Assembly: GCA_037178675.1 (NCBI GenBank)
Contig: JAYMGJ010000340.1
Location: forward strand, 124,001-188,000
DNA from: Scleroderma bovista
Lineage: Eukaryota > Basidiomycota > Agaricomycetes > Boletales > Sclerodermataceae
Direction: 5' to 3'
DNA length: 64,000 nt
Shown here piece by piece: positions 14,855-50,688 of the stretch (within the stretch, counting starts at the first letter, position 1; the number at the start of each line of letters is the position of its first letter). A program made the position numbers and the translations under genes. The notes beneath the pieces were generated by a model. It did no database searches, was not told the DNA's origin, and saw only the letters and a program-made list of their open reading frames with translations.

Positions 14855-15690
14855 TTACAATAGAGTCTCTAGGTGGCTTGATAGCTGGGTGGCTATGCTA
14901 CATAGCAAAATGTTTTTCCTGATGAGGAATATAATTTTCTTCACTAGAGGCTGGCTGCTGCTTGATGCTCTTGATGTCATTGATGTCATCATAATGGTCG
15001 ATGATGAGCGCATGGGGTCTCTCTTTGGCAGTGGTTGGTTTCCATACTTGACAAATTTGAGAGCACCAGCTTTGATTTCGGCCCATGTGTCAGGTAACAA
15101 CTCTTTGATCGAGACCAAATAAGAGACACTACTCTTGCCCCACTTGCCCTTCTCTGAAAAAGAGCCAGCCTTCAATTTGCCTTCTTCCATCATATGGTCG
15201 GTCTTTCTAGCTATTGAGATAGCTTGCTCAATCTATATAAACAATTTGTCAATGTTTTGGAATGAAAGATGTAAGGGAAAGCTTACTGAACCACTGATTA
15301 ATGCAAGCGCAGCAATTGGATTGGCATCTTTGATTTGTGGACATGGAACTGCATCGGCAACCCTCGTATAATGATATGCAAGGGTCTGAAGAATCAATGG
15401 TTGATGAAATGCCCCAACTCCACACTATGAAAGGTGTCAGCAGCATTATATAAGGAATCAGTGAAAAGCGCACATTATCTGTGTCCCAGATATACAGATA
15501 GACAAATGGAAGGCCAAGGTGTTTATCAAGGGCCCAATCAGCCCATGTGATACACTCATCATCATCAAAGAACTCATCTGACTTCAACCACTCTCTGACA
15601 TTCTTCTCTGCAGCACCAGCAAGTTTACTGTGCCAATCATAGATATGTTGATGAGCGAGCCCATGTACCTGGTTAGGCCGTGTTTTACAG
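14855..15690 (-). pseudogene. C-terminal part of a basidiomycete repeat-associated protein
   Basis: Spliced minus-strand coding remnant. The exon upstream of 15474 reads QHIYDWHSKLAGAA and WADWALDKHLGLPFVYLYIW. The intron 15473-15425 (49 bp) restores frame to FHQPLILQTLAYHYTRVAD and IAALALISGS. The intron 15286-15233 (54 bp) then joins IEQAISIARKTDH. Joined this way it resembles a large family of uncharacterised basidiomycete proteins often found in repeat-rich DNA; the Pfam assignment is uncertain (possibly DUF6532-like). The N-terminal half is missing because the sequence runs into the minisatellite at about 15.67 kb. An N-terminal-like part of the same family lies on the far side of the 35-kb block, at 50.7-52.1 kb. 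Confidence 0.55.
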
Positions 15691-16450
15691 CCAGCGGGGG
15701 TTGACAATCGGCTGTATGTTATGGGCCAGCGGGGGTCAGGTCAGACTACAGGGTGTTGCCGTGATATATGATCCGGCCTGTGTGTGGAATTGTCACCATA
15801 ATACATGGTCCAGCCTGGGGGTGGGTTGTCACCATAATATGAGGTTGGGCCAGGATGCAGGTATCACCATAGTGTATGGTCTGGCCAGGGTGTGTAATTT
15901 AACCATAATATACAGTGCGGCCTGGGTGTGGGTGTCACCATAGTGTATGGTCAGGCCAGGGTATGGGTACATATTGAACAGTCCGGCCTGGGTGTGGGTG
16001 TCACCATAGTGTATGGTCAGGCCAGGGTAGGTGTGTCACCATATTGTACAGTCTGGCCTGGGTGTGGGCATCACTATAGCATATGGTCAGGCCAGGGTAG
16101 GGGTGTCATCATATTGTACAGTCCGGCCTGGGTGTGGGCATCACCATAGTGTATGGTTGGGCCAGGGTAGGTGTGTCACCATAATGTACAGTCCGGCCTG
16201 GGTGTGGGTGTCACCATAATATACAGTCTGGCCTGGGGGTGGGCATCACCATAGTGTATGGTCAGGCCAGGGTAGGGGTGTCATCATAATATACAGTCTG
16301 GCCTGTGTGTGGGTGTCACCATAGTGTATGGTCAGGCCAGGGTAGGGGTGTCACCATATTGTACAGTCCGGCCTGGGTGTGGAGCCCATGCACCTGGGTA
16401 GGCCGTGTTATACGGTCAGCGGACGATGACAATCGGCCGTGCTACATGGG
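15658..16450 (+). repeat. Left minisatellite array, about 70-bp period
   Basis: Tandem units with the words GTGTATGGTCAGGCCAGGGT and CAGTCCGGCCTGGGTGTGGG alternate through 15720-16390. Both ends carry related boundary sequence (GAGCCCATGYACCTGG, then an AGCGG...GACAATCGGC block at 15657-15710 and 16382-16440). The same repeat occurs inverted at 49.42-50.61 kb. Confidence 0.9.
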
Positions 16451-16780
16451 CTGGCGGAAGTGAGGCTTATGACTAGAGCTTTGCCGTATCACAGGGGTCA
16501 GCCCCCGACAGCATTGTCACCAAGTGACAACGGTGGGCCCATGGCTCTGTTGTCATCGCGGGGTAGGGTGAAAGTCTTAAGCCAGACAAATGGGTGTCGT
16601 CATGAAAATACTCGGGCTCAGAGGAGTAGCATACCAATAGAATAAGTGAGCCAGTACGCAATGGAGGCAGTGTGGTGAAATCTGACGGCAGCAATAACAC
16701 CATAGTGAGCCGGTCAATCAGCATTGCGGCATGGTCAACAGTGCGGCAAAGTCAACACTCCGGCATGTTCAACGAGATGA

Positions 16781-16890
16781 TGTGCCGATGAGATGTTGTG
16801 CCGCTGATATGCAGTGCCGCTGATATGTGGTGCTGCTGATATGTGGTGCCGCTGATATGTGGTGCCGACGATATGTGGTGCCGGGTGTTA
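16781..16890 (+). repeat. 16-bp tandem repeat GCCGCTGATATGTGGT (A-type word)
   Basis: Six or so consecutive imperfect copies, preceded at 16700-16780 by CGGCA-containing words. It belongs to the TGCCG repeat class that fills copy A. Confidence 0.8.
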
Positions 16891-16989
16891 TGTGTCGGCC
16901 GCATCTATTGCTGCATCAATTTAGTGCCGACGGTTCCTCGTGCCGGATCTTGGCCTAACGGTAGTTACTTAACACTATATGCACGGCGA

Positions 16990-17600
16990 TACATCTATAT
17001 AGAGGACATAGTATCTAGGGCCTAATGGGTATACAGGGAGATCAACTTTGTGGCCCAACGCACTCAATGGGACACCTATCCACATGCCTTCCCAACTATA
17101 TAGTTGTTCCCGCATTGAGGGCTTGTTTAATCCTCTGGGACACCCCATTCATGGCTTGTCACTTTAAAATGTACTTGCAAGGTTTGCCTGCATAGCTAGA
17201 TAACACCTCTGCTAGGGCCTGCCCAATGCTATGGGATACCATGGCCATTGCCTGTCAGACTGAGCTGGGCGCACTGACTATAAATGATGCTGTCTCCAGG
17301 GCTTGCCCAGAGTTATGGGACACCACACCTGTGGCTAGCACCCCTTAAAGGTACAGTCTCTGCACAGCCCATTGGAATGCAAGGGACAATAGTTCCATGG
17401 CCCTTTGGTAAGAAAGGGACTCTGTTGTTACAGCCTGATCAAAGCCCGAAACACACTATTCCTCTGGCCTGCCAACAGAAATGGCAAACCATATTTAGGG
17501 CCTGATGCAAAGCACGGGACACTGGCACTGCAGCCCTCCTACTCACTCCTATTTGTTGGGCTCTATAATAGAATAGAGAACACTATATCCAGGGCCTCCT
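16990..17600 (+). repeat. Direct repeat R, left copy
   Basis: Diverged but colinear with 33945-34500: shared words include GGGCTTGTTTAATCCTCTGG, ATGCTATGGGA and AAAGCACGGGACAC. No coding function recognised. From 17600 to 18200 there is no gene, only GC-rich sequence with GCCG words. Confidence 0.75.
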
Positions 17601-18207
17601 GCTCATATAGATGATACGGCACCTGGGGCTGTTATGTAATCATGGGACACCATCATATGGGGCTTGACACATTGTGTGACACCACTTTAGCGGCGTGCCT
17701 TGGGAACTGCAGGAGGCGGGGCCTACTCTGCTACTTCTAGCCCCTTGGCCGCAATTCCATGGCTACCCTGCTGCTTTGGCTGCCATGCTGCTAACAGTCC
17801 TTCGGCAGCAGCGGCTATCCCTGGTTCTCTGGCCGCATTGCTGTGGCATACCTTTCTTTTGCCGTGATACCGCGGCTGTACTTGTCATAGTGGAGGCCAC
17901 CACTGCCGCCCGGCCATGATTGGTTACAGCCATCACAGCCGCAAACTTGACGACCGGCATAAGGTATCAACTTGCGGCACCCATTGTATTGGAAGATGCG
18001 GACGACACCTCCACCCAGACATGTGCTATTCCCATTCATGCCGATGTGTTCCCTGTGTGATTTCTGCCTCATTGTTAACCTGGCCGGGTGTTGCAGCCGC
18101 AGCTCAGACTTTGGCCGGCAACATTATATCACATGTGTCGCTTTGGCCGATATTTGATTAACCAATTATTGTTGTGATGAACATATATGTAGGTATTCAT
18201 ACAATGT

Positions 18208-18992
18208 TTACCTACCACCCAAAGACTCCTCCCATTTCTGCCGCAATGCATTTGGTGCACGGGTTAGCATCTCAATGTCCTCCATCCTTTTTGCACAATG
18301 CTGCATCACCTCTATATGATATTTGAGGGCATTGTCCGAGCTCCGCAACATATTGTCGCAGAAGTACCGTGCATTTGACAAGGCCTCGTCGGAGGTATAC
18401 CCAACGGTGAGTAGAATGGTGACCTTTCTATCAGCAACCTTGGAAAAGCTTTAGTATCTAACACAACACGAATAAGGGAGCATACCAGGTCCGGCGGAAA
18501 GAATGCCTCTGCCTCCGATACCATGTCCCGCAGTGGCCGCGTGCTGTACCCTGCCGTACATGGGCCGTGGCCATTTACCCACCACGAGTTTGCCACTTGA
18601 AGCGTACTTGGAACCTGGACTTCGGCGGCCTTCGCATGATAGACGTTCAACTGTCGCATTGCCGCATACAGTCTTGCCGGCGGCAGATCTTCTAGTACGA
18701 CCATTCTGTGCACCCTGCTCGCCATCATTGGCAATATCATCTTCGCACCCATAGCCTGGCATGCGGCAAGCACACGTTCTAAATTTGCCTGGGGGCTCAT
18801 GAGTGTGTTAATCAAATGTAATCATTCTCCACTTACCACTTCCGTTTGTACGTTTGCATACCATTCAGCTGTGGCCAGCATCCCCTCAGGCAGTTGTTGA
18901 ACCGCGTGCACCATCCGTTGAAAGCGGACTCCAACGTATTGCAATACCATGGACAGTTCGCAGGTTTCGCGCAGTTCGGATGTGGTATTCAT
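18208..18992 (-). CDS. Gene X, copy A: conserved KDZ-associated protein, 229 aa, unknown function
   Basis: Three exons, 18992-18837 (156 nt), 18788-18486 (303 nt) and 18438-18208 (231 nt), join in phase 0 throughout with no stop. Introns are 48 and 47 bp. The start is set by homology: copy B gene X begins likewise and shares QYxGVRFxR in exon 1. The middle exon is exactly 303 nt in both copies. The sequence looks alpha-helical and soluble with no recognisable catalytic motif; exon 3 reads TVGYTSDEALSNARYFCDN. It is divergently transcribed from TET/JBP, 276 bp away. Retention of an open frame in both copies, even where other genes are broken, argues for function. No family name known to me. 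Confidence 0.7.
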
Positions 18993-19267
18993 GATTGATG
19001 GTGTGATGGCCGATTCGCCCTAAGCCTTATAACATTCAGGCAATCAATGTTCTCACGGTCCACATGTCACCTGATGCATAATTACCACATTGTGCAACCG
19101 GGCATGTGTTGTTTCGCACCGGCCAATCGCCGATCAGCCTTGTTTAGTGGATCTAGCCGAGAATGGAATGTGTTGCATTGCTGTTTGCAAACAGATGTCC
19201 GCAGGATGCCGCACATCCCCCACTAAAATTTTTACTCCCCACATTGTCAAAAGTCGTCCTGTATCCA

Positions 19268-20531
19268 ATGGCCGGTGCAAATGCCGTGCCATCCAACTAT
19301 ACTTTGTCTGACATCATGGCATCATATATGCGGCGCCGCTTCCTGAATGAAGCATTCCCAGACTTAAATTCCCCCACCCCGGAAACACTTCTGTCCCTGC
19401 CGGTGGACGCAACTGTAGCCATGAACCAAATTGTATCCACCATCACACAGGCATACCATAATCGGAGTGAGCCAATTCTTTTATAGTTCTATTATCCCTT
19501 GCTTGATATCCGCTGAAGTTTCGTGCGGCATTGACTTGATTAGGTTGTCTGAAAGCCTCGGACCAATGCAATCCGGCACAAATGAGCAACAGGAGATTAG
19601 GGTCCTCCGTAGACATCCTTCCTCTTTGACTGGGACCCTTTCCCGGCCCACCATTATTCTGGGAGAAGGTGACACAATTGCATTGTGGTATCTTCCCGGA
19701 GCTCTAGCTCCCTGCATCCAAGTACGGTATCATTCCACTCTCATTGTCCACTGTTGAGGCCTTTGTTTCTAGGAGCACATCGCGGCATCCATTGATTCAC
19801 TTGCAGATCCACTGGAAGAGAGTATTACTAATCAATCATGGCGTACAACACACCAGTATTTCAAGGATGACGTGGATATTTTCGGGTGCTTGGAATTCTC
19901 TCCGGCACGGCACATGCTCGGCCATTCTGTGAGTACCTTGTTCTTTTGACAATGCACTTGTTTGATCTTCTGCTAGACCCCCAATGACATTCCGGGGGTG
20001 TCCAAGGCTTTGGCCGGTCCTACGGGCTATCAATGGAGCAAGGATATATGTCTTCCGTCGGCAATACTTTCAGGTGTTCTTTCTATTATCCATCCGCCTC
20101 TATACCATGCCGGCCACCTTGCCATGCAACACTTGACTGACTGGGCGACCGGCCATGATCCCGGAATGCTGGCGGCACTTGAAAATTGGTCCACTGTCTT
20201 CACCAATATCTCGCTAATTGTCAATCGAAGTACCCCCCTCCACAGGGACCCACACTCTCGAGCAGATTGGTATGACATGCTAGTCAGTGTCGGTAATTAT
20301 GATGATTGTGCACTGCACATTCCCAGTCTTGGGATTCAGGTATTGTACAATCCCGGCACTGTCGTTGCATTTTCCGGCCGGCTCTTTCGGCACGGCGTCA
20401 ACGAGGTTGACGGAGCGAGGTGCTGTTTGGCATATTATATGAGGGATAATATTCACCATTGGTTGAGGGTGCCACGGCCTCTTGATTGGGTGACGCCAGA
20501 TAATGTCTGCAATGCACTGGTGAAGCATTGA
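19268..20531 (+). CDS. TET/JBP family 2-oxoglutarate/Fe(II) dioxygenase, copy A, 370 aa, intact
   Basis: Predicted to oxidise 5-methylcytosine (or a related thymine/cytosine methyl group) in DNA in the nucleus, as fungal TET/JBP enzymes do. Exons 19268-19466, 19519-19721, 19773-19928 and 19977-20531 join in frame; introns are 52, 51 and 48 bp. The start is chosen by alignment with the copy B gene. The catalytic core is in the last exon: H275-R-D277 (TPLHRDPHSRADW) binds iron, H325 (FRHGVNEV) is the distal His and R334 (GARCCLAYY) the likely 2-oxoglutarate-binding Arg. YNPGTVVAFSGRLFRHG fits the core strand. GEGDTIALWYLPGAL marks exon 2. No stop or frameshift. It lies between gene X and the KDZ transposase; the KDZ-TET/JBP linkage in mushrooms is established. 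Substrate and activity are inferred. Confidence 0.85.
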
Positions 20532-20599
20532 ATAATTAGCTTCCTGATATGATTGTTTGTTGTACTAAAATGTAATTCTGATGGTATGTAGTCCAAATT

Positions 20600-20785
20600 T
20601 GTTGCCGATGGGATGTAGTGCCGCTCGGCGAGCCCAAAGTCGATTCTGGCATGATCACAATGATCCGGCTTGGTCAAGTGTAAACATTCAACAGGGCGGC
20701 ACATTCATCATTCCGGCATAGTCAACACTTTCCGGCAGATTCAACAGTTCGGCACAATTATAATTCTGGCAGCGTGAACTAATCT
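20600..20785 (+). repeat. A-type CGGCA-word stretch after the TET/JBP gene
   Basis: Scattered TGCCG/CGGCA words (GATGTAGTGCCGCTCGGCG, TTTCCGGCAGATTCAAC) lead into the inverted repeat that starts at 20788. Confidence 0.6.
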
Positions 20786-20787
20786 AG

Positions 20788-21683
20788 CATCAATCATGCT
20801 GTTGTGTAGTGGCGTGTCAGGATGCTTCCGGCAATGTGTGCCACAATGATGATAGTGCCGAATTGTTGATTGTGCCGAACTGTTGACTGTGCCGGAATGA
20901 TGAATGTGCTGAATGGTTGATTGTGCCACAGGGTTGACTCTGCCACAATGTTGAGCCAGAACGGTGATTGTGCCGGAGGGTTGATTGTGCCGCAGTGTTG
21001 ACTCTGCCGTAATGTTGACAGGCCAGCACAATCAATACTCCGGCACAATCAACCTTGCGGCACAGTCAACACTCCGGCAGGATCCACATCCCGGCAGTCA
21101 ACAGGCCGGCACAATCAACACTCCGTCGGCACAATCAACCCTTCGGCGCCATCATTAGTCTGGCCCAGTCAACACTCCGGCACCATTACCAGTCCGGCAC
21201 AGTCATCATTCCAGCACAGTCCTACCTCAGAGCGTGCTCGACCTGGACAGCTTGTGCCGCAGTGTTGACTCTGCCGTAATGTTGACAGGCCAGTACAATC
21301 AATACTCCGGCACAATCAACCTTGCGGCACAGTCAACACTCTGGCAGGATCCACATCCCGGCAGTCAACAGGCCAGCACAATCAACACTCCGTCGGCACC
21401 ATCATTAGTCTGGCCAAGTCAACACTCCGGCACACTCAACCCTCCGGCACAGGCAACATTGCGGCCGAGCCAACACTGCGGCACAATCATCATTTCGGCA
21501 CAATCACCATTCTGGCTCAACATTGCGGCAGAGTCAGCCCTCCGGCACAATCAACCTTTCGGCACATTCATCATTCCGGCACAGTCAACATTCCGGCACA
21601 ATCAACAATTTGGCATCATCATCATTGCGGCACACGCTGCTGGAAGCATCCTGACACGCCGCTACACAACAGCATGATTGATG
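20788..21683. repeat. Large inverted repeat of TGCCG/CGGCA words with internal direct duplication
   Basis: Left arm 20788-about 21000 is an imperfect reverse complement of about 21470-21683 (both ends CATCAATCATGCT / AGCATGATTGATG). Within it, 20987-21175 is duplicated directly at 21253-21430. Units are 14-18 bp and carry CGGCACAATCAAC on one side and GTTGATTGTGCCG on the other. Differences between copies include CG versus CA/TG. From 21690 to 22100 there is no gene. Confidence 0.85.
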
Positions 21684-22103
21684 CAGTGAACTATGACACA
21701 TAGGTTATAGCTAGCTGTTGCACCGGCACACAATGGTTTCTAGCTGCGGTAGTTGATTGTTATCAATGCCAGCAGTCGTGGAACTACGAGGACCACGGCC
21801 GGTAGGCCCATGATTGCACCTCTTCCCTTGGCAGATTTATATTTACATATTGGCCAAAGGGTGTGCATGCATGGCATTCAATTGCTGCTGGTACATGGCT
21901 TTTCCATTCCGGCTACCAGCGAATCTACGTGCCACTGTTCATGACCCTCCCATTCCATCATCCATTCATTCCAAGGTATGCACCCCATAAATACCTTGCA
22001 GTTGCACCTTGTTTTCTCCACTAACAGCCACTCGATGATCCATTTTAAATATGTCCTCTTTGCATACCATATAGTGGTATTTGATGCCGATGGTCAATGC
22101 CAA

Positions 22104-25100
22104 TCATACACAACCAAGTCTACCATACATTTGACATTGCTTTGCTGCATAGCATGCTCTCCCCATCTCTCCGCTCATATTAGCCTCCTCCTTTTGATCT
22201 CTCCAAAGTGTTTCCCTATACGAAAGAAATTGTCTTGTCCAGGTGGCTTCACATGTCAATAGTTTTACCTCTTCGTCCCACCTGTCTCGCAATGCTTTCG
22301 CCCTCAACCAATGCACCCGGTAAACTATACATGTCAGCCAGTGTTAACATGAGGAGCAATCATCTTACATTCAGACATCCAATCATTGACCTCTGTATCC
22401 CGCGGCACATCCATTGTCCAAAACCAGGCCAAAGTGTCATCCCTATGACCCCTTGCATTTGGGTCGGCAATGGTTGCACTGATCTTTAGGTCTTCTTTCC
22501 TCAACATTTTGTATCGGTTCAATGTGTTGCCGCTTGCATTCAATGCTATCATTTGTTTCCGGCACCGACGATATATTGCCGCATGCCGCTGCACTTTCAC
22601 ATCGGCACTACCCACCTTCCCCCAGGCCCTCGTAGTCATATTGTATGTCCCGGCATGTCTGACATCGGTCCGGAAGATGACTGCCTTGTGTGCCAGCGAA
22701 ACCCTTAGTTCATGTAGAGCATCGTTGGCCTGACCTTCCCTCAATCGTAACTCCTGATCCACCATGGTTAAAAGCCCCAACCTATCGGCTTGCTGCATCC
22801 CCAGGTACGACGGCAAGGGCAGTACCACAGCATCCGAGTAGTTGGGATCTTGTGGGTGGAATGTGTCTGAAAATACATCTTCACCATCACCTTCATCGAT
22901 GTCCGTTGTGGAAATGAGATTATCCGAGATGTCCTCATTCCAATCTTCGCCTAGAAATTGGGAAGCTGATTCACAGAGCCGATCAATTTGCATCTGCAGG
23001 CGGTCCTGCCGGCGGGCAATAGACAACCTTTGTGTTTCCGTCGCCCTTGCATGAATGTGGCGGACATCTATGGCCAAAATAATTTGTGATTCTTCGGCTT
23101 TCAATACCCTTGCCATCCATGTTGCTGCCCCACGCATACGACCATCCGGTCCCTGATTACTTATAATATCCATTTCGATCGACTTCGTTGTTTGAGCTGT
23201 CATATACGTCAAATTGGTTTGAAATCAGCCAAGCAAGTAAATACCTTTTTCCAGCTGCACCTCAAATATGTCCATTGATTTTGGATCAGTAGCCCTATTC
23301 TCCAAAGCCGATTTCTCTTGCTGTGCCCAAAGCTCATGCAACTCGACCGGAACCCTTGTATCAAGCTCTGCAAATGCTCCTTCCGCGGACATCAGTGCCT
23401 CTTGAGCATTCTTCAATTTTCTTTTCAGGGAGATGGCTGTGCAATATGTCGTTGGCATACTTCACCCAAAATCTGCAAGATATTGTGATACCACTCATGC
23501 ATCCGCACCATCTTTAAGAAGTTGTTGTCATTCATTTGAAAATCAAGCAGCTCCTGTCTATGCGGCGTTGCCATTCCGCGGGCCGATGGCGAAATGATGT
23601 TAAGAGAGGACCAGAGAGTCTCCATAATTTCACCATCGACGCGGCCTACACCAGAAATGAAATTGGGAGCATATCGGGTGAAACATTCTGCCTTGTGACC
23701 ATGTACATGCCAGAGCCCAATGCTAGGTTGAATCCATAGCCCAGGTGGTAAGGATATAAAATTGTTTGCTTCTAGCCGGCGCTTTAGGTTTTTGCTGTAT
23801 TGGCAATTGATGTCATAAAAGGTTATGACTTTTTGTTGCGGATCCATCCCATGTTGCACGGCATGTGCCAGAGCATAATCCATATTTACCTGCCTATCTT
23901 CCTGTTAGGGTGGAATGCATGCAACATGTCAGCACATACTGCTCTCCCTTCTGAAAGTCAACCATTGCATGGGGTACAAAGCATCCATGCCGCGCACATG
24001 CACACCCGCCAATTCCAGTAGATGCCAGCTGATTTCTTTTAGCATTTGCCTGGTTTACTGCTCGATGGTTGCTACAGTCAGATTTCTGTGAATTCCATTA
24101 CAATGCTGAACCGTATTGTAAACATGTGCAATCACAAACCTCGACCCGGTTCAATGTTCCAGCCAGATAATCCTTATATTCCGGCATTGTAACCATGAAT
24201 CCCATTCCGTCCATGAGCCAAACTTCATTAGCTGAATTCTTTGGCCGCATATGCTCGGCCTTGAAGTTTCCATCCATCACGATGGTCCTAGAATATTTCC
24301 ACCTATATCATGCAGCTGCTCAATAAGTACAAGTAAAAATAAAACATTACTTACTCCGAGAGGTCTACATCTTCACTGGATGGAATGTTTACTCCTGGTT
24401 GTGGGCATGCCGGACAGAACAGCACCAATTCCCCCCTCTTGGGATCAGGAGATCCTGGATGAAAACCTTGCCATTTCAACAGCTTTAACAGCCTCCACAT
24501 CCTCGACACCCTGAGTAGCTCTCTGTATCTGTTCTTGGATCAGTGTTGGTGGTGTCATCGGGTCCTTAATATCATGCTTTGAACTCACCGGTACAAGGCC
24601 GGGAAATGCATTGGATGTGACTCGCCGAAGCTTGCTGTAATAATTCATGGCAGAGGTGCCGCACTCCACATTATCCATAATGAAGTCATCCAATACTTGG
24701 AAGGTGAATACAGTCCTAGGTTCCTTTGTAGTTGCCGGGAAGAGTCCTGCTTTGACCAACTGCAAATGCGAAGCTCCTGCATCTGGACAGTTACAATACC
24801 TCACATCGCAAAAATGTACCCCAGATGTATGCACTACAGTTAGGCAAGACCTGTCCGTTCCTCCAGAAAGATGATGTGGTCTTGGTTGGTCCTGAATATC
24901 CTCCCATTCATCCTCAACATCACCAGCAATGTCCTCACCATCCATCCCGCCATTCGGACACGGATCCCCACCATGGCCGAGGTGTACCACCAACCCAGCC
25001 TTCTAAATGAGTTGTTGCTGTATGCCACGTAGAATTGATGACTCACCAGTCGTAACGATGATTCCTCAAAGAATGTACCGTTCCATTGGTCCACCCGGTG

Positions 25101-25622
25101 GAAGGGCCGCAACTTGTGTTCCTTTCTGCAACAGGAACTGCAGAGCAAGGGCCGGTGGATGCATTCGGCGCATCTGTACATGCCATCTCCTTGACACAAC
25201 ATGCAGACCCTTGGGTGAGGGGGTGCCTCCATGTCCAGAAGGACCTGGAGGTACCTCTGCTTGTATGGCAACCATGCCAATAAGTAACTGTCCTATTATG
25301 CCTTCAGGAGGACATGGCAAGTGCAGGATCGGAATAAATCACACACCTGATTCTTTGACACACCTGTTCTCTTTCGGGGTGGAAGATCATCCATGGAAAT
25401 GTATGGCTGGCCATCATCTGGAAACAGTTGGGATTGTTCTAATCCTATAGATGCTGACTGGGTCGGAGTGTCATTTGAAGGAGCTTTTCCATGATGGGCC
25501 TTCTTTCGGGGCGTTGCCTTCACCATCTTATCAATAGATCCCCTCCTTGATTTGAATGCCTGCCATGTTACATGAACCACCGGAGTAGAGCTACCAGCAG
25601 GTTGTATCTTGGACTTTGCCAT
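22104..25622 (-). CDS. KDZ (Kyakuja-Dileera-Zisupton) transposase, copy A, 1018 aa after splicing, one bad donor site
   Basis: RNase-H-fold DDE transposase. Ten exons: 25622-25347, 25292-25047, 24999-24589, 24533-24355, 24302-24140, 24085-23940, 23893-23499, 23436-23245, 23196-22369 and 22324-22104; introns are 44-62 bp. Start MAKSKIQ matches MGKSRIS in copy B. Order: a basic N-terminus; a CxC2-type Cys cluster at about 122-150 (CMLC, CAEC, CSSCC) continuing with FCDVRYCNC; NRYRELLRVSRMWR; then the catalytic core with D381 (IVMDGNFK), D501 (TFYDINCQYS) and E562/E565 (GRVDGEIMETLW); then a helical C-terminus ending FYRVHWLRAKALRDRW. All joins keep frame with no stop. However, intron 7 starts AT instead of GT at 23498-23497 (copy B has GTGAGT), so normal splicing would fail there. 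Confidence 0.85.
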
Positions 25623-26043
25623 GAGTGGTATCTGATGAGGAAATCCCTGCACAAAGTCTTTCCACATTGTATCTCACTGAAGCCTCATTGAAACAGCATG
25701 GACAGTGATCGGAAAGGGATCTTTGGATCTGCCGATTTGGATCTAGCTTTTGTAATATGGACTTGAAGATCAGGCACCAATGCAAAAATCCCATATATGG
25801 TGGCCGCTACTGAATTAGATGCTAAGTTAAAGTCCGGAAATAGCTTGTTAGCTGCCGAACAACATAGCCGGCCCCAGAAGTAGCTAGCTCACCAATGGAC
25901 TTTCCAAAAGAGGTCGGCGTGGAGGAATTGAACACTAATTGACATGGGAGAAACAATAGCTCGGGAATCCTTCAACAAAGTGTCCGGGACTTCTCTAGCA
26001 CAGCACCACTCAAAAAAGTATCTAAGTCTACTCAACATACAGC

Positions 26044-28436: not shown

Positions 28437-28516
28437 TATACTTGTAGAATAATTCTATTGTCAAATCTGCCATGTCTTGTGCCGAAAGATTTTATTGCTG
28501 CACTACTGTAACAAAA

Positions 28517-29715: not shown

Positions 29716-30179
29716 GCAGATCAGCTCAGAGGAGAGAAATTACTCACTCAATTTCCACGGACTTGCGCTATCAAATCTGACAGACTTAGGTGGCATAGCG
29801 GTAGCAAAGATGCAAGTTGACAAGATGGAATTGACGTGGAATGGAAATCACAATTGAATGATTATATAATAATGGTTTCCATATATAGTTCATTTATCTC
29901 ACCACTGGAAAGATTTGCTGATAGTGTGTTGTGCCAAAGGTATCGGCAAGTGCCGATGTTATACAAGTGCTGATAGTATTACAAATGTATGTCCTGCTGC
30001 CGGGGTGTATGCCGATTGTCTACCGTATGCATGTTCCAATGGAATGCTATGCTGATTACAGTATGTTACCTCAATCAACACATAATGCTGCCATCCACGG
30101 CAATTATAGATACTCTTGCTATTTATGTATATCGGTAACATCAAAGAATTACTGCAAAGGTAAATCTTGCATTTGCTGG

Positions 30180-33651: not shown

Positions 33652-33667
33652 ATTGCCCGAAAAACAA

Positions 33668-33858: not shown

Positions 33859-33944
33859 CAATGCCATGTAGTGCCGATTGTGTCGTGCCACACCTGGCTT
33901 ACCGCTACTTTAGAGAAGACCAGATGCCCAGCCCTACATTTATA

Positions 33945-38644: not shown

Positions 38645-38699
38645 TGTAGTACTTTTGTAGTACCAATGCAATCTTCATCAGACCGATGTAGCCGGTGGT

Positions 38700-39740: not shown

Positions 39741-39806
39741 TGGTAATGATATCAATAGGTACCACATTTGACAACAGGACACATTCATAAAATATATAAA
39801 TGTAAT

Positions 39807-41693
39807 CTATCTCTTTTTCCTTTTATCACGGGGTGTAGGTGCATCATGATCTGCTCTTTCTGTTGCCCTTCTTTGCCTTTTGGACTGCTGGACTGTATTA
39901 CCAGGACCGGGTTCCTTATTGCTAGGACCGGCTATGGGAATATCCCCCGGAACCACATTATCTAATAATAATGTCATTATCCTGTCAATTCTATTCAATG
40001 AACATACCTGTTCCTCTCTTCTGGCATGGACGTGGCTGGGTGGGGGGAACTGCGATAGTGTCACCGGCTGGTGCATGAGCTTTTGGGGCAGGCCAGTTGT
40101 GCTTCTGACTTCTGGTTCAGTCAGTAACGCCTTCATTGGGGGAATCACCCTCATCCCATTGGTCCTCTATGTAATATTTTTAGTAGAGACTCCACAATTC
40201 AGAGAAATTCGCTCACCTTGTCTCCTTCTCTTTCCAAGGGCCTTGTCTGACCGGTGCTCATCTTCACCAACTGACCTTTGTAATGCTCCCTCGGCATCCT
40301 TCCAGGCCATGAACCTAAATACATTTTGTGGATCGATTTGTTGTCTCCTCCTCCAGAATTCCAGGATCTGAGTCACTTGCACACCACCCATTTTGCTAGG
40401 TTCCTTCAACGAGACATCAGAAGGGAGGTACTTGCTTTCAATATAACCTTGCAGGTCTTCTGTGATGCTCATCCATGGTACAGTTGCTCTTTCCTTTCCA
40501 CAAGCATGACCTATTGTGCCTTAGTTAGTTACCCCTCACATAAATCCAAGTAACTTATGGTAGTGACAGGTCACGAATGCCTGGATGATGTCCTGTTTCT
40601 CCAGCACATGCATGTCAAGGATGTTCGGAAGTTGTGGAATCCTGCTGTCAAGGGTTTGGAGGCTTACTTGTGCCTTTTTCTTACCCTTCTTGACAATCTT
40701 TCGAGGATGTTGATCTGCATCCTCATCCTCATCATCTGCCTGGTCTCCATCCGGAATCTCGCCGGCCTTGAATACATCAGAAGCATACCTCGACCATTTT
40801 TCCTCCATTCCTTCCCAGTCCGGAAATGTACTCGCATTCCCAAGTTCATCATTGAAATCATGTCTGTAATTGTTCTGGTCATCTCAATGTGTAACTGCCA
40901 TGTTTCCACTTACATGCCGGCCATCACCTTTCCGTTCTGATCCTTCCAAGCCACCATCACCACCACCCGGGTACCACACTGCTTCCACATAGTCTCTGCA
41001 TACTCGCGAGTATACTTCCGGCCTTTTTTCTCAGCTGCACTGAAGACCTGTGAGGTGTATCATACAAAAGATTAGAAATGTGTACATACATAGCCTGTAC
41101 CTCCAGCGGTGGTTGGACCTCATTCCACTCCTGAGCAACCCGCTCTGCCTCTTTCATTTCATCCTTGGTAACCTTTTTCATCAGCCTTCCAACGGTCTTC
41201 TGGTACCCTCCTATCATTTCCTTGCTGCCAACCCCGATACCGCGCTGTTGGAATTCTTGCTGAATATCCATTCGCTTCTGCTCCCTTATTACCTTCCGTG
41301 CAGTCCAATTTTGCCCCCACTTCAGCATCCCCTTGCATGCTCGGGACTGGCCATGGTTATAAAACCAGCTTTTGATGTGCTATAAAATGTTAGCCTTTGC
41401 AGAGTGGAATACAACATCACCTACACCCAACTTAGCTTTCCAGTCCTCTCCCAAGATGTACTCATTTGCAGGCAGGTGTCTAATGAGATCACGGACCCTC
41501 CTATTCACAGGCTTCCTCCTGTCCCCCTTTAAAGCCTTCCACTCTTCGAGGTTTGCATGAAGAATCTCTATTTCCTCAGAGGTGAGTTTCCCTGGAGTAT
41601 TCTCCCCTACCAGTCCGGTGGTTGTGGGATCCTCTGGTTCTGTAGGTGAGATGATTCAGAAGATGAATGGGAGTCTGAGTCGCTTGAAGTCAT
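39807..41693 (-). pseudogene. Gene Y, copy B
   Basis: Starts at 41693 (MTSSDSDSH). The frame must shift by one base near 41640 to reach LTSEEIEILHANLEEWKAL, homologous to LRDDEVEVLEEALEDWKAA in copy A. Later exons give HIKSWFYNHGQSRACKG, IGGYQKTVGRLMKKVTKDE, TRVVVMVAWKDQNGK, LPNILDMHVLEKQDIIQAF and VTQILEFWRRRQQ, ending in a basic tail (PRDKRKKR, stop 39807). Apart from the 5' frameshift the exons look well preserved. Transcribed divergently from the copy B KDZ gene, as Y and KDZ are in copy A. Confidence 0.55.
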
Positions 41694-42028
41694 TGTGAAT
41701 GTGGTAGACTTTGTTGGTGAAGCCCTCCATATCATAGCGTGCACCATGTTGAATGGAATTCCCTCAGCTGTCATGTAAAGTTCCTTTGATCTGAACAATT
41801 TCCTTTTGAGGTTAGCTATGGTTCCGGTGCAGTGGATCACTAACCATAAGAAGTAGCCGATGTCACAAATCGGCAGATCACCTACTATATATAGGCAGTG
41901 TACCTAATGTTCCTGATGCCAATTGGTACCAATCTCAGACAAGATACACAGATCCGGATGCAATGATGGTGATCCATGATGTTGCAATGAGGCATTTCCT
42001 ACTGAAGTTTGCACCAAGCCTATCAATC

Positions 42029-45000
42029 ATGGGGAAGTCGAGGATATCTGGAGTGACCTCTTCTACCTCTGTGACCCATGTGGTGTGGAAGACTGTGAAA
42101 ACAACTAGAGGATCAATTGATAAGTTTCAAAAGGTCACTCCCAGAAGAAAGGGTCGACAGGCTATGCAATCTAAGGCATCTCCTACTGTGGCTTGCTCAT
42201 CCATCATGGCAGAACACAATGTGTTTCAAAATGGTGATGAAGATGCTTACCAGGAGCTAGACGATCCACCTCCTTTGAAACAATTTAAAACGACCAAAAA
42301 TCAGGTAGAGTATTATTCCACAATATATTACCCTGTATCTCATGGACATCGCTTTTAGAACAGCTATCTCTGGGCATGGCTGCCCCATAAACAGAAATAT
42401 CTCTCAATCATTCTTGCCATGGAAGCTCCCCCCTGTCCACGGATTTGCATATTGTGTGGTGGGGATGGCAGCTACAGATGCATAGATTGTGCACACTGGC
42501 CGGTGTTCTGCACAGCCTGTTGCAGGAACCAGCATAAGCTCTGGCCCTTCCACCGGGTTCAACAATGGAATTTGGCCTTCTTTGAAGACTCCTCTCTCCG
42601 GCTTGTGAGTGCTTTCATTCTGACTCAATAACAATGTCTGATGTTGTAGGCGGGGTTGGTGCTGCACCTTGGACATGGTGGGGATCCTTGTCCGAGTGGT
42701 GGGCATGCAGAATTAGATTCTAGAGGAAGGAGCACAGGACCATGAGGAATCTGTCTTTACCTTTCAGGTATTGGATGATTTCATCCAGGATAATGTGGAA
42801 TGTGGAACCTCTGCCATGAACTATTACAGCAAACTCCGCAGGATTACATCCAATGCCTTTCCACACCTTGTGCCGGTGAGTGGACCGGAAACACATTACA
42901 CGTGTCTTACCTCAGTAATAGGACAGATACAGGGAGCTACTTAGAGTATCCAGGATGTGGAGGGTGCTAAAATTAATGAAATGGAAGGGAGTTGATGATA
43001 GTGAAATTGGTTCATCAACAGGTGACCTTGTGCTGTTTTGTCCAGCATGTCCACAGCCTGGAGTGAACCTTGATGATACTGATGTGGATTTGTCCCAGTA
43101 TGTAATGTGTTTAAGCTCCACTGGGATGGGGAGATTCATTTTTCTTTGTAGCTGGAAATTTTCAAGGTCGATAGTGATGGATGGAAATTTCAAGGTGGAG
43201 CACATGAGACCGAGGAACCCTGCAGATGAGGTGTGGCTGATGGATTGGAGGGGGTTCATGGTAGGCTCAGGTAACTACAAGGAGTACTTGGCAGGCACAG
43301 CAAATCGGATAGAGATGAGGGAATGCACCACTGGAAGTTCTATATCTCACCCTTTGAAAAGCGATCAGAGTGTAGCAATCACCAGGCAGTTAATCAGGCA
43401 AATTCGGCAAGGAAACAGCTGTCATCCACCGGGATTGGGGGATGTGCATGTGCAAGACATGGATGTTTCATCCCCCATGCAATGGTTGACTTTCAGAAGG
43501 GAGAACAGTAGGTTCTCATAATTGTCATCTTGAGTTTGTTGAGCTGGTTACAGGCAGGTAAACATGGACTATGCCCTGGTGCATGCAGTCCGGCATGCAT
43601 TGAATCCCGACCAACAAGTGATAACATTTTACGACATCAATTGCCAGTATAGTAGAAATTTGGCCTGGTGGATTCAGTCCAACAAATTCATCACTCTACC
43701 AGATGGACTGTGCATTTTGCCTGGGATCGGTATTTGGCATGTACATGGGCATAAAACAGAATGCTTTGCCAGATATGCCCCGAATTTTATTCCTGGTGCC
43801 GGCAGAGTGGACGGGGAGATCATGGAGACACTGTGGTCTTCACTGAATATAATATCTCCATCTGCAAGGGGGATGGAAACACCGCATCGCCAAGAGTTAC
43901 TCGATTTCCAAATGAATGACCACAATTTTGTCAAGATGGTCCGGATGTGTGAGTATAACAATGCCCTTCACCATGACCCTGCTGGCTGATGTGTACAAGC
44001 ATTGTTTCTAAGGAGAAAAATGAGGGGTGCCCAGTGCTCATTGACAGAGGTTACAGAAGCTTTGAAAAACTGAATAACCAAGTCCCGGAAGGTCTCCGGC
44101 AATTGTGGTCAGAGCAGGAGGCGAAGGCATTGAATGACCAGATGATGGATCCCCGTGCAATGGATATATATGATGTTCAGCTGGAGAAGGGTATGTTGTT
44201 TTAAAATGGAGTTAACCTTACTGAATATGGCCTGAAGCACCAACAATGAAATTGATAGAAATGAACCTTATCAACCAACAACAAGACGGCTTCGGGGATC
44301 AATCACATGGATAGCTAAGGCATTGAAGGTTGAAGGAGCACAGATAATGCTAGCCATTGATGCTCGGCAGCTCAACACATCCGGAACTGAAATACAACAG
44401 CTATCAATTGCACAGTGCCGAGACCGGCTACAATCCCAGTTAGAGGGATTAGTTGCATCAGCCACACAGTTTCTGGGTGAAGACTGGGATGATGATGTAG
44501 AACTGGACACTGCCCTACAATTTCAGGACGACCAAGCAGATGGTGAGGAAATAGAAAATCCATTCATCTTGCCAACACAGGGAAATGCCGAAACAATGTT
44601 GCCACCGCTGCCATCATATATTGGAATAGACCGTCTCCAGGGATTAGGACTTGGATTCCTTGTGGAACAGGAACTATCCTTGAGACAGGGGCAAGCCAAT
44701 GATTGCCTTCATGAAATTAGACTGGCACTGGCTGACAAGGCCATCATCTTTAGGCGAGATGTTAGACAAGCCGGTAATTATAATATGACCACCCGGGCAT
44801 GGGGCCGGATAGTGAGCACAGATCTCACCCTACAGCGCCATGCCTCATTATATCGCCAGTGCTGCAGGCAGATGGTAGCTCTCCATGCCGATAGACAGGT
44901 TCTAGACCGGTACCAGGAATTGCATGCCTCCGACCTTTCGGTCACCACTGCAATATCGGACCCCAATGCTTAGGGCCACAGGGATGATACCCTCCCTTGG

Positions 45001-45328
45001 TTCTGGACCATGGATGTACCCCGAGATACTAATAGGAATGATTGGATGTCTGAATGTATGTCTTAGCATCATCACAAAATGCTTTCGGTACTTAACTGGA
45101 AATCTAGTTTACCGGGTTCATTGGTTCCGGTCCAAGGCACTTAGGGACTGGTGGAAGGAGGAAGTGGAGATGCTACAATGTGAGGTGGAGTGGACCAGAA
45201 ATTATTTCCAAAGTAGGTTGAATTTCTGGTCAGACCACCAGCAAACAGCATTGAGATCTGATGAGATCGGGATTGCCTGTTATGCTGCCCGGCAACGTCA
45301 GATATATCATTGGCTCTATTCCATTTAA
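42029..45328 (+). pseudogene. KDZ transposase, copy B, inactivated
   Basis: Same exon plan as copy A. Recognisable parts: start MGKSRIS (42029); CxC2 cluster (CILC, CIDC, CTACC); RYRELLRVSRMWR; IVMDGNFKVEHM; TFYDINCQYS; GRVDGEIMETLW; NMTTRAWG; and a C-terminus FRYLTGNLVYRVHWF. Damage: the second Cys segment (FCDVRYCNC region, about 80 codons) is deleted with a frame change at about 42715-42750; a frameshift near 44040-44060; an in-frame TAG at 44971-44973 where copy A has Arg. The donor of the seventh intron is normal here (GTGAGT, 43948-43953). Catalytic residues remain, but no full-length protein can be made. Confidence 0.85.
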
Positions 45329-45359
45329 ACACTACATTGATGTAGGTTGTAAAACATAT

Positions 45360-46131
45360 CTACTTCTTTTCATCTGTCACAAACCATTCCCATGTCTTAC
45401 CCAATTGCTCTTTTACATGGGGAACACTGTCAAATAAACTCAGCTGCTGCTCTGAAGCCTGCATCACCATATGTACATTTCCCATCTCTTTCTCTATTTC
45501 ATGCAGCATGAGATCACACCCACTCATCATGTATTTGATGCTGTCCCTTGGCATTCTTGGGACATCAAAGAGGAGTGGTAAGGACTCGGTCCCATCCTGC
45601 TGATCATGTAAGGCAGGATGTGGTGGCAAGGGAATATACATACCGAGACAGTAGGGAAAAAGTCTTTGGCCTCCGAAATGATGTGCAGGATTTTCCAGGA
45701 TTCATATCCATCGGGGAATGTGGTACCAGGCATCTCCCACCATTTGTGTAGCATCAGTCTGGTATGATGAATCTGTGACTCGGATGTCCTGATCATGAAT
45801 ACATCATGACCCTTCATGTATTCCAGTATCTCCTCCTGCTGCATCTTTGCCAGAGTGGCACACCACAGGAATTGGTTTGCAATATAAGGCACCCACATGA
45901 TCAGACCATAGGCACTGCATGCAGAGAGCAATCGCTCAAGAACATGCTAAATGTATAATATATGAATTGATTTCCATGAGAATCAGGTGATCTTACAATT
46001 TCTATCATGACATTCTCAAACCAATTTGAAGATGGGTTGGGTTGCTGTAGCACATAGGTAAACCGTCGGAACCGAACCCCAATGTATTGCAAAGCGAGGG
46101 AGATATTGTGGGCATCAAGGGTGTTAGACAT
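45360..46131 (-). CDS. Gene X, copy B, 225 aa, open
   Basis: Exons 46131-45997 (135 nt), 45946-45644 (303 nt) and 45599-45360 (240 nt) join in phase 0, with introns of 50 and 44 bp and no stop. Homologous to copy A gene X throughout (LQYIGVRFRRF / LQYVGVRFQRM; ISEAKDFFP / VSEAEAFFP), with the same intron positions and an identical middle-exon length. Sequence identity is modest, so the copies are old. It is the only cargo gene in copy B I found free of disabling changes. Function unknown. Confidence 0.65.
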
Positions 46132-46259
46132 GATTGTGGGCAAGTGAGGTCCTGGGTAAATATAAGCCTTTAATAGGATAATGATATTTCTCATGGTCCA
46201 TGTGACATTCATGATGCAGTCCTGCCTTAGACCGGTTGAATGGGTGGCCAGTAGGGCAC

Positions 46260-46975
46260 ATACAAGACACAGAGGAATGGTCACTGGTAATAAATGTGGG
46301 GTATTGACTGGTAATAATCACGTACACACTGGCAATCATGATGCTTGCAATATAAGCCTGTCAGGATTGTATTTGAAGACAGAGACCAGACCAGTGATGT
46401 AGTGACCAGTGATGGTCATTCCAGTATTACACTGGATAATAGGTATAGCGGTAGCATATCGACTGGCAATGGGCATACAACTATTATACTGACTGGTAAC
46501 TGTCCCACCGGTAGCATACAAACTGGTGTTGGTCATACTGGTGTTATACTGGCCAGTACTGAAGGTACTGCTATTATGCTGACTGGTAACAGTCATACCG
46601 GTAGCATACTGACTGCTATGTGGTGTACCAGTATCATCCTAGTATTGTGTTTTGACCTGCGAAGATACTGTTCTATATGGGCATACTGACCGCCAATGGT
46701 CATACTGGTATTATACTCAGCCCATAGCGAGTCAAGTGGTGACTGTCATACCGGTGGCCTTCATACCAGTGGCATACTGACCGGTCAGTGTCATATCTGT
46801 AGCATACTGACTGGTCACTATCATACTGGTAGCATACCAGGCAGTCAGTGTCTTACCGGTAGCATACCAACTGGTCACTGTCATACCGGGAGCATATCAA
46901 CTGGTGTGTCATACCGGTGCATACTGACTGGTAACAGTCATACCGGTAGCATATTGTTCTACATGGATAAAGCAT
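46260..46975 (+). repeat. B-type repeat field between genes X and TET/JBP, copy B
   Basis: Dense ACCGGTAGCATACTGACTGG words of 15-25 bp (CATACCGGTAGCATACTGAC and variants). No coding sequence. Confidence 0.85.
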
Positions 46976-47026
46976 ATCCTACCAGAAACATGTATTGGAC
47001 TACCAGTCATGGCCAATTAAGGTAAT

Positions 47027-48302
47027 CTACACCTCCAACTGCAACAACGCATCCTGGACCTTGTGAAGCCTCATTGGATCTGGCCTGGGGACTCCGAGCC
47101 AATTATGAATGTTATCCTGCATGTAGTATGCGAGGCAACATCGGTCTCCACCCTCCTCGATCACTCCATGCCTGAGGAGCCTACCAGAAAATGCTACAAC
47201 CATGCCCAGGCTATATTCCAGCTGAACTCCAAGGGTTGGGATATTAAGGAAGCAATCTTGATATTCACCGACAGTAGCAAGTAGATCAAACCAATCAGAC
47301 CGGGACTGGGGATCTCAGTGCAAAGGTGTTTTCCGATTGGAAATGAGTGAGAGATTTGTGTATATGGTCAACCAATGCCCCAGTGCTTCCTGCATCACAG
47401 GATCGTTCTTTATAGACCATGCATCCAGCCTCTGCCTTGCCTCTAGACTGGCATGATAGAGTGGAGGGTGCATTATAGATAGCGCACCAGAAAGGAGGGC
47501 AGATGGGAGGCAAATATTCTTTCCCCATTCCTTGCCTGCCAGTGTTGCAAGCCCTGCAGAAACCGATGGTGTGTGTTTCCTTGTCTGTACCCGAGGTTAA
47601 TTATGTTTGTTTCTGAAGAAAGATATAACTCTACTGAGTGGCCTTGCAAATGCCTAGCTGGTGAAAACTCCAGACATCCGGATGGTGTACTTCCTGGTTG
47701 GAAGTATTGATCAGAGTTTCTCCAACTCTGGTTTTTGATACTCTTCCAGAGGTTGTCACCAAGAGGCTGAAGGCCTGTAACAATATGTTTCTTTACCTAC
47801 ATGTCAGACGAGGCGTGCATAATATCGACCACCATACCTGAATTGGCCTAGCTAAGGCACCTGAAAGGTACCACAAAGCGATGCTATCTCCTTCCCCAAG
47901 GATGATTGCTGGTTCCGATAAGATAGCAGGCATGTTACTGGTGCTCCTGATCACCGGTGGGTGGTTCTCTAGGAGCTGAGCCTCCCGTTTCATGTCAGCT
48001 CCAGACTCCATTGCAGACAGGCTCTCACTAAGTTGTATGAGATCAATGCCAGATGGAACTGAGATGGAAAGTCAGATGGTATGTTAGAGCCATGCAATGA
48101 ACTTACTCCGATTTTTGTATGCCTTAACAAGAACAGAAACCAATTGGTTCATCCCGATGCAACCATGGGATGGAATATCCAATGGAAGTGCAGGCCGGGG
48201 AAAATCGGGGTCTAGTGCCAGATGGCGAAATCACCAGCGCATGTAGCCAGCAATCCTTTAAGATAGGTGATAGTCAGTGACACCCATGTTGAATGTGGCC
48301 AT
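47027..48302 (-). pseudogene. TET/JBP dioxygenase, copy B, inactivated in the catalytic motif
   Basis: Exons 48302-48107, 48058-47838, 47796-47635 and 47584-47027 correspond one-to-one to copy A, with the same phases. Conserved landmarks: GEGDSIALWYLSGAL, GCLEFSPARH, ICLPSALLSGALSIMHPPLYHA, VVAFSGRLLRHGV, DRCCLAYYM. Damage: TAA at 48260-48258 and TGA at 48233-48231 in exon 1; TGA at 47317-47315 replacing the middle Arg of the HxD iron motif (H-stop-D; consistent with CGA>TGA); and a one-base deletion before VVAFSGR. The gene is dead although its intron sites are intact. Confidence 0.85.
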
Positions 48303-48799
48303 CTGGAAATATTGGATGTGTCTGTACGGAGGATGCAATGAAGCAGTCAATGACTGATTTGTGCTGAAAGCCATGGGAACTGTGACCGGTATATCTTAAC
48401 TAGTTGCTGGAAGCCAGAAGTGTGTTCCGAATGTACCCCTGCCCATGGGCATTGTATTCCTAGAATCCCACAGGTCTCAGGGTGATTGACTGCCAGCATA
48501 GTACACCTTTCTTTCAACATAACTCACCCTGGGTCTTACTAGATATCGATGGTGTAAAGTTGCTGGCCGGATGCCTGATCAGTCCGGTGTCCCCCCATAG
48601 TAATCAACAAGCATTGGGGTGCTATTCTCATAAGTATATGGCCTTATAGGCAGAGTGAGGGAACTTGATTGGGAAGTCAGGACCATGTCTTGGTGTCCGG
48701 TGTATGCCATACCTGCCAGCTTCATACCTGAGCAATCCGGTCTCACCATCACTAGTAATCAACAATCATCAGAGTGCTATTCTCATACTTAAATCACTT

Positions 48800-49285
48800 T
48801 ACTGTATCACCATTACCGGTCAGTATACTTATCCTACCAGTATTGCCACAACCAGTGAATATCCTACTAGTATGACAATGACCGATCGGTATGCTACCGG
48901 TATGACAGTGACCGGTTGGTATGCCACCGGTATGATAGTGACCGGTTGGTATGCTACCAGTATGACAGTGACCGGTTGGTATGCCACCGGTATGCTACTG
49001 GTATGACAGTTACCGGTCAATATGCTACCGGTATGATAGTGACTGGTTGGTATGCCACCGGTATGCTACCAGTACGATTGTGATCAGTCGGTATGCTACC
49101 AGTATGACAGTGACTGGTTGGTATGCCACCAGTATGCTACCGGTATGACAGTTACCAGTCAGTATGCTACCGGTATGATAGTGACCGGTCGGTATGCCGC
49201 TGATATGACACTGACCGGTTGGTATGCTACCGGTATGACACTGACCGGTTGGTATGACCAATTAATCATTACTGGCCAGTACACC
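48800..49285 (+). repeat. B-type repeat array, right edge of copy B
   Basis: Units of 25-40 bp such as ACCGGTTGGTATGCCACCGGTATG repeat through the block, in the opposite sense to 46.3-46.9 kb. From 48310 to 48790 no gene is recognised. Confidence 0.9.
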
Positions 49286-49420
49286 ACCTGAATGCTTATC
49301 ATTAACTTGTACTACTTGTATAATCATTTTCATTCAGTACAGTACCAGTCTTGTCTTTGCTAATACGTACAATCCTGACATGGCTATCATCAGCCTGGAC
49401 TTGTTTCAAATATTTTTTCC

Positions 49421-50605
49421 TCTCTGGCCCGACCATACACTTATTGTGACACCCACACCCAGGCTGGACTATCCATTATGGTGACACACCTACCCGGCCC
49501 AACCATACACTATGGTGATGCCCACACCCAGGCCGGACTGTACAATATGGTGACACCCCTACCCTGGCCTGACCATACACTATGGTGATTCCCACACCCA
49601 GGCCAGACTGTATATTATGGTGACACCCACACCCAGGCCGGACTGTACATTATGGTGACACCTACCCTGGCCCGACCATACACTATGGTGATGCCCACAC
49701 CCAGGCCGGACTGTACAATATGATGGCACACCTATCCTGGCCCGACCATACACTATGGTGACACACCTACCCTGGCCCAACCATACACTATGGTGATGCC
49801 CACACCCAGGCCGGACTGTACAATATGATGGCACACCTATCCTGGCCCAACCATACACTATGCTGACTCACCTACCCTGGCCCAATCATACACTATGGTG
49901 ATGCCCACACCCAGGCCGGACTGTACAATATGATGGCACACCTATCCTGGCCCGACCATACACTATGGTGACTCACCTACCCTTGCCCAATCATACACTA
50001 TGGTGATGCCCACACCCAGGCCAGACTGTACAATATGATGACACACCTATCCTGGCCCGACCATACACTATGGTGACTCACCTACCCTGGCCCAATCATA
50101 CACTATGGTGATGCCCACACCCAGGCCGGACTGTACAATATGGTGACACCCCTACCCTGGCCTGACCATACACTATGGTGATTCCCACACCCAGGCCAGA
50201 CTATCCATTATGGTGATGCCCACACCCAGGCCGGACTATACAATATGATGACACACCTATCCTGGCCCGACCATACACTATGGTGACACCCACACCTGGG
50301 CCGGACTGTTCAATATGCACCCATACCCTGGCCTGACCATACACTATGGTATCACCTACACCCAGGCTGGACTGTATATTATGGTTAAACTACACACTCT
50401 GGCCGGACCATACACTATGGTGATACCTACATCCTGGCCCAAACCTATATTATGGTGACAACCCACCCCCAGGCTGGACCATGTATTATGGTGACAATTC
50501 CGCATACTGGCCGGACCATAAATCATATCATGGCAACACCCTTTAGTCTGGCCTGACCCCAGCTGGCCCATAACATATGGCCGATTGTCAACCCCCGCTG
50601 ACCAT
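49421..50605 (-). repeat. Right minisatellite array, inverted relative to the left array
   Basis: Same units as 15.66-16.45 kb in reverse complement (CCCACACCCAGGCCGGACTG, GGCCTGACCATACACTATGG), about 16 units. The distal end (50395-50605) matches the reverse complement of 15695-15915 almost unit for unit, including GGGGGTTGACAATCGGC. Confidence 0.9.
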
Positions 50606-50688
50606 AAAGTATGGTACAATGTAGGTACATTATGTGGATGAGCCTACGTATCATTAAAACTTCAGTTAACTAAGTAACAGCAAATATA

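Follow-up and report, generated by a model that had tools for sequence, protein, structure and literature searches.

Why do dozens of TET genes ride on mushroom transposons, and how could a TET dioxygenase favor the element that carries it? These questions were addressed at a locus of Scleroderma bovista (GenBank assembly GCA_037178675.1), in a window of 64,000 nucleotides (contig JAYMGJ010000340.1, positions 124,001 to 188,000 of the forward strand; window coordinates below count from its first letter) that contains two diverged copies of a six-gene set: a KDZ transposase, a TET/JBP dioxygenase and four escort genes, X, Y, Z and W. The two copies, here called elements A and B, represent separate subfamilies of one Kyakuja-like KDZ DNA transposon with six genes; A lies within B, and each carries its own CCG-containing word. 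We propose that these private words are read by an element protein, most likely W, which would concentrate TET on its own subfamily, a reading that we hold to be evenly balanced between right and wrong. TET-bearing Kyakuja transposons are already known, and in the text of Kojima on these elements the function of their TET is described as not experimentally validated (Kojima 2025, PMC12730594).

The first-pass annotation had described the block as two inverted copies bracketed by inverted minisatellites. The genes X, TET, KDZ, Y, Z and W do occur in two diverged sets, with inverse overall orientation and a rearranged order (A, X- TET+ KDZ- Y+ Z- W-; B reversed, TET+ X+ KDZ- Y+ Z- W+). The inverted 35-bp minisatellites are likewise present (15762-16382 and 49905-50525, 82% complementary), but they do not bracket two elements: both are B's own, and the left end of A, at 16382, directly follows the left array. 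Minisatellites as borders of a two-element composite were rejected, as these are B's subterminal arrays and copy C560 has them. The block is a nested pair, A having inserted into the left array of B, as follows from the end of A at 16382, the mirror arrays of C560 and the 7-mer GATGAGC at the outer ends of B.

Read from left to right on the forward strand, the pair begins with the 7-bp target-site duplication GATGAGC of B (15650-15656), followed by the left end of B (15657-16381), which consists of the terminus GAGCCCATGTACCTGG and the remnant of the subterminal 35-bp minisatellite cut by A, and which is like the ends in C560 and C122. Element A occupies 16382-34507, as delimited using seven other copies; its left terminus is intact, and its last 361 bp are missing, since other copies extend 361 bp past 34507. 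The main part of B (34508-50636, by comparison with C560) includes a 30-bp ACCGGT array (48870-49256), the right subterminal 35-bp minisatellite (49424-50525, the inverse of 15762-16382, recognized from the arrays and C560) and the right terminus GGTACATTATGTG, which ends at 50636 and is followed by the second GATGAGC at 50637-50643. The termini GAGCCCATGTACCTGG and GGTACATTATGTG are homologous to those of A. At the 34507/34508 junction, A is without its last 361 bp and B without about 0.6-1.3 kb, judged by C122 and C560.

A is approximately 95-99% identical (92% in one array stretch) to C556, C150, C342, C572, C188, C280 and C120. Its start base is common to the six copies with the left end covered, and their flanks are unrelated. 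The 361 bp past 34507 run to a common right end in C556, C342, C572, C120 and C188, and also, with an insert, in C150; C280 diverges 110 bp past 34507. Outside the arrays, window B is mostly 96-98% identical to C560:5374-25635, an intact copy that is flanked by CACCGAC on either side and whose two ends carry [35-bp][30-bp] arrays as mirror images. Both ends were readable in eight copies (C556, C150, C342, C572 and C120 for A; the window copy, C560 and C122 for B), and perfect 7-bp duplications were found in three of these: GATGAGC in window B, CACCGAC in C560 and CGGAAAC in C342.

In common with the TET-bearing Kyakuja of Agaricomycetes, as far as Kojima's text describes them, the pair has a KDZ transposase, 7-bp target duplications, a right end in ..TG and an AG-type TET with HxD, a downstream His, an Asp337 equivalent and Ser at the place of Gly331; Zisupton and Dileera are given 8-bp target duplications in the same text (Kojima 2025, PMC12730594). 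The AG-type residues were counted by eye in an ungapped stretch against CcTet 7vpn, with the H of HRD taken as His326. Two L. bicolor Kyakuja families are described with 5′-CA..TG-3′ ends and no terminal inverted repeat (TIR), whereas the left end here is RAGCCCATG and not CA, and the right end is ..TGTG (PMC12730594). A further difference from Kyakuja is a 9-bp inverted match just inside the ends, ATGCACCTG in A and ATGTACCT in B. We use the label Kyakuja-like because the left end and the near-terminal inverted match differ from Kojima's ends. X, Y, Z and W, the mirror minisatellites of B and the private words go beyond Kyakuja as that text describes them (PMC12730594). TIR motifs for KDZ/Plavaka elements are placed in the supplement of the Marasmius oreades genome paper, according to its text (PMC8290104).

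The four escort genes had been suggested to belong to a larger element than transposase plus dioxygenase, and the genome (51.8 Mb in 850 contigs, with 150 scored Tet_JBP matches) supports this: they are found repeatedly next to transposases of the Kyakuja lineage, and much less often next to those of other KDZ lineages. Another gene of the set lay within 20 kb of 116 of 127 X loci, 123 of 131 Y loci, 62 of 63 Z loci and 110 of 138 W loci. In 45 clusters X, TET, KDZ, Y and W occurred together, and 25 contained all six genes, the search for Z reaching mainly A-type Z. Among the 125 transposase loci of the Kyakuja lineage, defined by a match to the C-terminal KDZ exon of A, 101 had TET, 91 X and 94 Y within 15 kb, 75 had W within 20 kb, and 6 had none; other KDZ loci were without any set gene nearby in 39 of 56 cases. 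A third subfamily, D (C178), has all six genes, with X 34-40% identical to that of A; as in A, its Z lies between Y and W, on the other strand from Y. X, Y, Z and W are thus genes of the element. Additional proteins in TET-bearing Kyakuja transposons were reportedly described by Iyer and colleagues in PNAS in 2014. Outside this genome, the relatives found were metagenome open reading frames and one named W relative, from Scleroderma citrinum (44% identity, 94% coverage). A further group with TET and KDZ, in at least four copies of identical score (C74:23-26k, C127:115-118k, C252:25-28k and C324:16-19k; G000), has a transposase that was missed by the C-terminal KDZ exon of A, and is possibly a Zisupton-type TET element.

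The two copies had also been said to use different intergenic repeat words, and they do: TGCCG in A and ACCGGT in B. In A, B and D alike, CCG/CGG was the most over-represented of 32 trinucleotides in noncoding DNA as approximately delimited, and the bases flanking it differed, giving TGCCG in A, ACCGG(T) in B and CCGCGG in D. Compared with 56 kb of genomic flank, the density of the element's own word was approximately 8-fold in A, 29-fold in B and 22-fold in D, while the words of the other subfamilies reached at most about 2.5-fold the control in each element. Outside tandem arrays, the words occurred 8.1 (A), 1.1 (B) and 2.7 (D) times per kb, versus 1.4, 0.13 and 0.13 in the control. In A and D the word is spread along the whole length, with 77 of 214 and 4 of 53 sites, respectively, within arrays; in B it is found mainly in arrays. 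The arrays of A comprise 17/34-bp units (CCGGCA/TGCCG) between TET and KDZ (20684-21634) and 17-bp units, TTCTGCCGACAGCGTTG, near the right end (33668-33859).

The words, which had been picked in noncoding DNA, were next looked for in coding sequence, with shuffles of synonymous codons as the reference. In the coding DNA of its own element each word ranked first of 506-512 5-mer classes (control frames, 186, 487 and 208), and the words of A (43 vs 20.8) and D (45 vs 13.7) kept rank 1 on homology-supported codons. CCGCGG also occurs in subfamilies E and G (5 in 3.4 kb, 4 in 0.9 kb and 5 in 0.9 kb). CCGCGG pairs lying close together numbered 292 in the genome; of the first 50, 39 were nearest to D/E/G-type anchors within 10 kb, 11 were unassigned, and none was nearest to an A, B or C anchor. 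Intact words outnumbered their one-step deamination products 1.15-2.2 fold, the value in flanks being about 0.2, a ratio unlike passive CpG decay.

W is the candidate reader. In A, where it lies at 31082-32930 on the minus strand, it combines the motif CIKCIQRDRWCAANPGRACWQCCCSKIAC, spaced like Zn2Cys6, with a coiled-coil-like stretch. W of B (35284-36706, minus strand) has a 0.7-kb gap relative to C560, which seemingly takes out the cysteine-cluster stretch; the stretch is present in C560. Zn2Cys6 proteins follow the six-cysteine pattern C-x2-C-x6-C-x5-12-C-x2-C-x6-8-C, and W of A, B (C560) and D, with C-x2-C-x6-C-x7-C-x2-C-x6-C, fits this spacing. The words contain CCG/CGG, the triplet typical for Zn2Cys6 proteins. 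In one account, the typical binding form of such proteins is a coiled-coil dimer on a pair of CGG triplets, and Lys18 of Gal4 contacts CGG (PMC5559640).

From these observations we infer binding, targeting and demethylation, as follows. An element-encoded DNA-binding protein, most likely W, would read the word of its subfamily and gather TET, and perhaps the transposase, on DNA of that subfamily, where TET would oxidize or remove 5-methylcytosine. Such a private code would reverse host methylation on the element's own subfamily while sparing other sequences; if word and reader diverge together, subfamilies could coexist. Y, which is weakly HMG-like, X and Z would be co-factors. The wider idea, that each subfamily writes a private CCG-based word into itself, in A and D from end to end and as far as synonymous positions of its genes, and has its own zinc-cluster protein aim TET (and the transposase) by it, so that the element might evade host silencing and the codes would be mutually blind within one genome, is put forward tentatively and with some doubt. 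The reader may also be Y instead of W, and the words may serve transcription or transposition.

Several observations weigh against targeting by a private word. For the element itself, a matching 7-bp duplication was absent from five of the eight copies (C556, C150, C572 and C120 for A, and C122 for B), for which recombination between copies or misassembly may be the cause; ratios of nonsynonymous to synonymous substitution rest on few changes and include 0.94 for X versus C342 and 1.06 for one KDZ exon. For the words, 55 of 76 ACCGGT sites of B lie inside its 30-bp arrays, and on homology-supported codons the coding word of B dropped to rank 19 (14 vs 7.0), with no enrichment of ACCGGT. CCG was not enriched in 1.4 kb of the outer region of E (rank 14 of 32), and subfamily C was without a single clear word. 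Better conservation of CCG columns than of others was seen in several arrays of A and was absent from most arrays of B, so that it is not used as evidence. For the reader, Pfam Zn_clus PF00172 scored 16.1 bits in B against a cut-off of 21, with A and D unmatched, hence the label Zn2Cys6-like, and the S. citrinum relative of W as annotated is without most of the cysteine cluster. What we take to be the place of Gal4 Lys18, by alignment to the Gal4 sequence, is occupied in W by Asp, Asp and Met. Finally, the transposase could equally be the reader.

If the KDZ transposase were that reader, the words would be binding sites for its zinc clusters in pairing or cutting the ends, the escorts would help transposition and TET would be untargeted by sequence. 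B has dense arrays close to each of its ends and most of its words in arrays, and the transposase has a CxC2 zinc cluster; however, the words of A and D run along the whole length and through coding regions, which end recognition does not need, and we consider this explanation rather unlikely. Zn2Cys6 proteins are mostly transcription factors and the words occur in intergenic spacers, so that W and Y might be ordinary transcription factors of the element and the words promoter sites for its six genes, with no link to TET. High word density is also seen at B's outer ends and, in A and D, within coding sequence, and this account is judged unlikely.

The words could instead be by-products of mutation, in which methylated CpG decays except in spared or quickly repaired contexts, arrays arise by slippage and there is no reader. 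The observed-to-expected CpG ratio is 0.38 in the window's host flanks, every word has a CpG and the arrays look like slippage products. The spared context nevertheless varies by subfamily within a single genome, and words of foreign families are spared less (intact/decayed, 0-0.67 vs 1.15-2.2); something must therefore distinguish the subfamilies. Together with dispersed coding words of A and D beyond what arrays explain, this makes a purely mutational origin improbable. A misassembly that joined two unrelated element copies is very improbable as the origin of the block: the junction at 34507/34508 is a double deletion in a repeat-rich assembly, but B is flanked on either side by a perfect GATGAGC, and on the left the junction with A is precisely at A's own terminus.

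The other genes of A are as follows. Gene X (18208-18992, minus strand; exons 18992-18837, 18788-18368 and 18311-18208, drawn as the best match to subfamily D) is 34% identical to X of D over 214 amino acids (E 5e-32) and had no Pfam match; its AlphaFold2 model was unusable (pLDDT, the predicted local distance difference test, 42.5). The AG-type TET/JBP gene (19150-20531, plus strand; exons from 19566 modelled, N-terminal exon by eye) matches PF12851 (1.2e-17) and CcTet 7vpn (E 2e-35) and has HxD and the distal His. The KDZ transposase (22104-25673, minus strand, from a gene model) contains the CxC2 cysteine cluster (PF18803, 6.7e-27, 94 bits); PF18758 was above cut-off at both window KDZ loci, that of A being C340:147521-147901. 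Gene Y (26044-27513, plus strand) has a weakly HMG-like region and a premature stop in the window copy, where the frame is open in all six other copies read; comparison of its sequence with solved structures gave no useful match. A feature lies between Y and W (28517-29715, minus strand).

In B, TET/JBP (47030-48230, minus strand) has an in-frame stop in the window copy, and the set includes X (45530-46317, minus strand), the KDZ transposase (41816-45325, plus strand), Y (40170-41655, minus strand) and a feature between W and Y (37500-38641, plus strand). An NCBIfam scan of five pieces (P0036; window W, Y twice and X) gave no match, and no relatives of TET and Y were found in viral contigs. 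In all three subfamilies, A, B (read in C560) and D (read in C178), Z opens with [KR]xVRF, with a Ser/Pro-rich stretch after it; this resembles the RVxF motif that docks to protein phosphatase 1 and hints at phosphatase docking, the motif being too short for a claim.

Elsewhere in the window, a complete-looking long terminal repeat (LTR) retrotransposon (2819-11108) has long open frames between identical 457-bp LTRs (2819-3275 and 10652-11108, TG..CA) and a 5-bp duplication, CATCT; it is a very recent insertion. Beside it lies a GC-rich minisatellite of 24-33-bp units (11670-12410) that is not built on the words.

As far as seen, novelty lies in the six-gene element as now delimited, with one copy nested in another, in its Zn2Cys6-like W and in private words that extend to synonymous sites in A and D. 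A transposon tagging its own synonymous sites by its own word was not found in print, most subscription journals lying outside the search. As one element combines a word private to its subfamily, a protein that may read it and TET as effector, the question of why TET rides on transposons becomes directly testable.

Three known systems bear comparison. TnpA of maize Spm/CACTA is element-encoded, binds subterminal repeats and is linked to demethylation; here the transposase class and the protein are different, and in A and D words are found from one end of the element to the other. DNA uptake sequences of Neisseria and Haemophilus are short self-identity words scattered in coding and noncoding DNA, but they are genome-wide and serve DNA uptake, whereas the words here belong to single transposon subfamilies. 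The VANC proteins of Arabidopsis recognize motifs that are private to a family and often tandem, and they remove methylation from elements of their own; related VANC proteins act on different targets (PMC5735166). Like the motifs of VANDAL elements described there, the words are short, family-private, often tandem, rare elsewhere and different between related elements (PMC5735166); such privacy is found in A, B and D and is not clear in C and E. VANC motifs are described as mainly noncoding, whereas the words here also occupy synonymous sites in A and D (PMC5735166). Also unlike VANC, the putative reader is of Zn2Cys6-like type, and the element brings its own TET dioxygenase. None of the four escort genes of A had a Pfam match to the VANC domains DUF1985 and DUF287, and the comparison is therefore one of working alike, not of membership. 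A word, a candidate reader and TET in one element suggest a VANC logic assembled from fungal parts; if true, this logic would operate in fungi with a different effector, and the subfamilies would offer natural word-reader pairs for aiming DNA demethylation.

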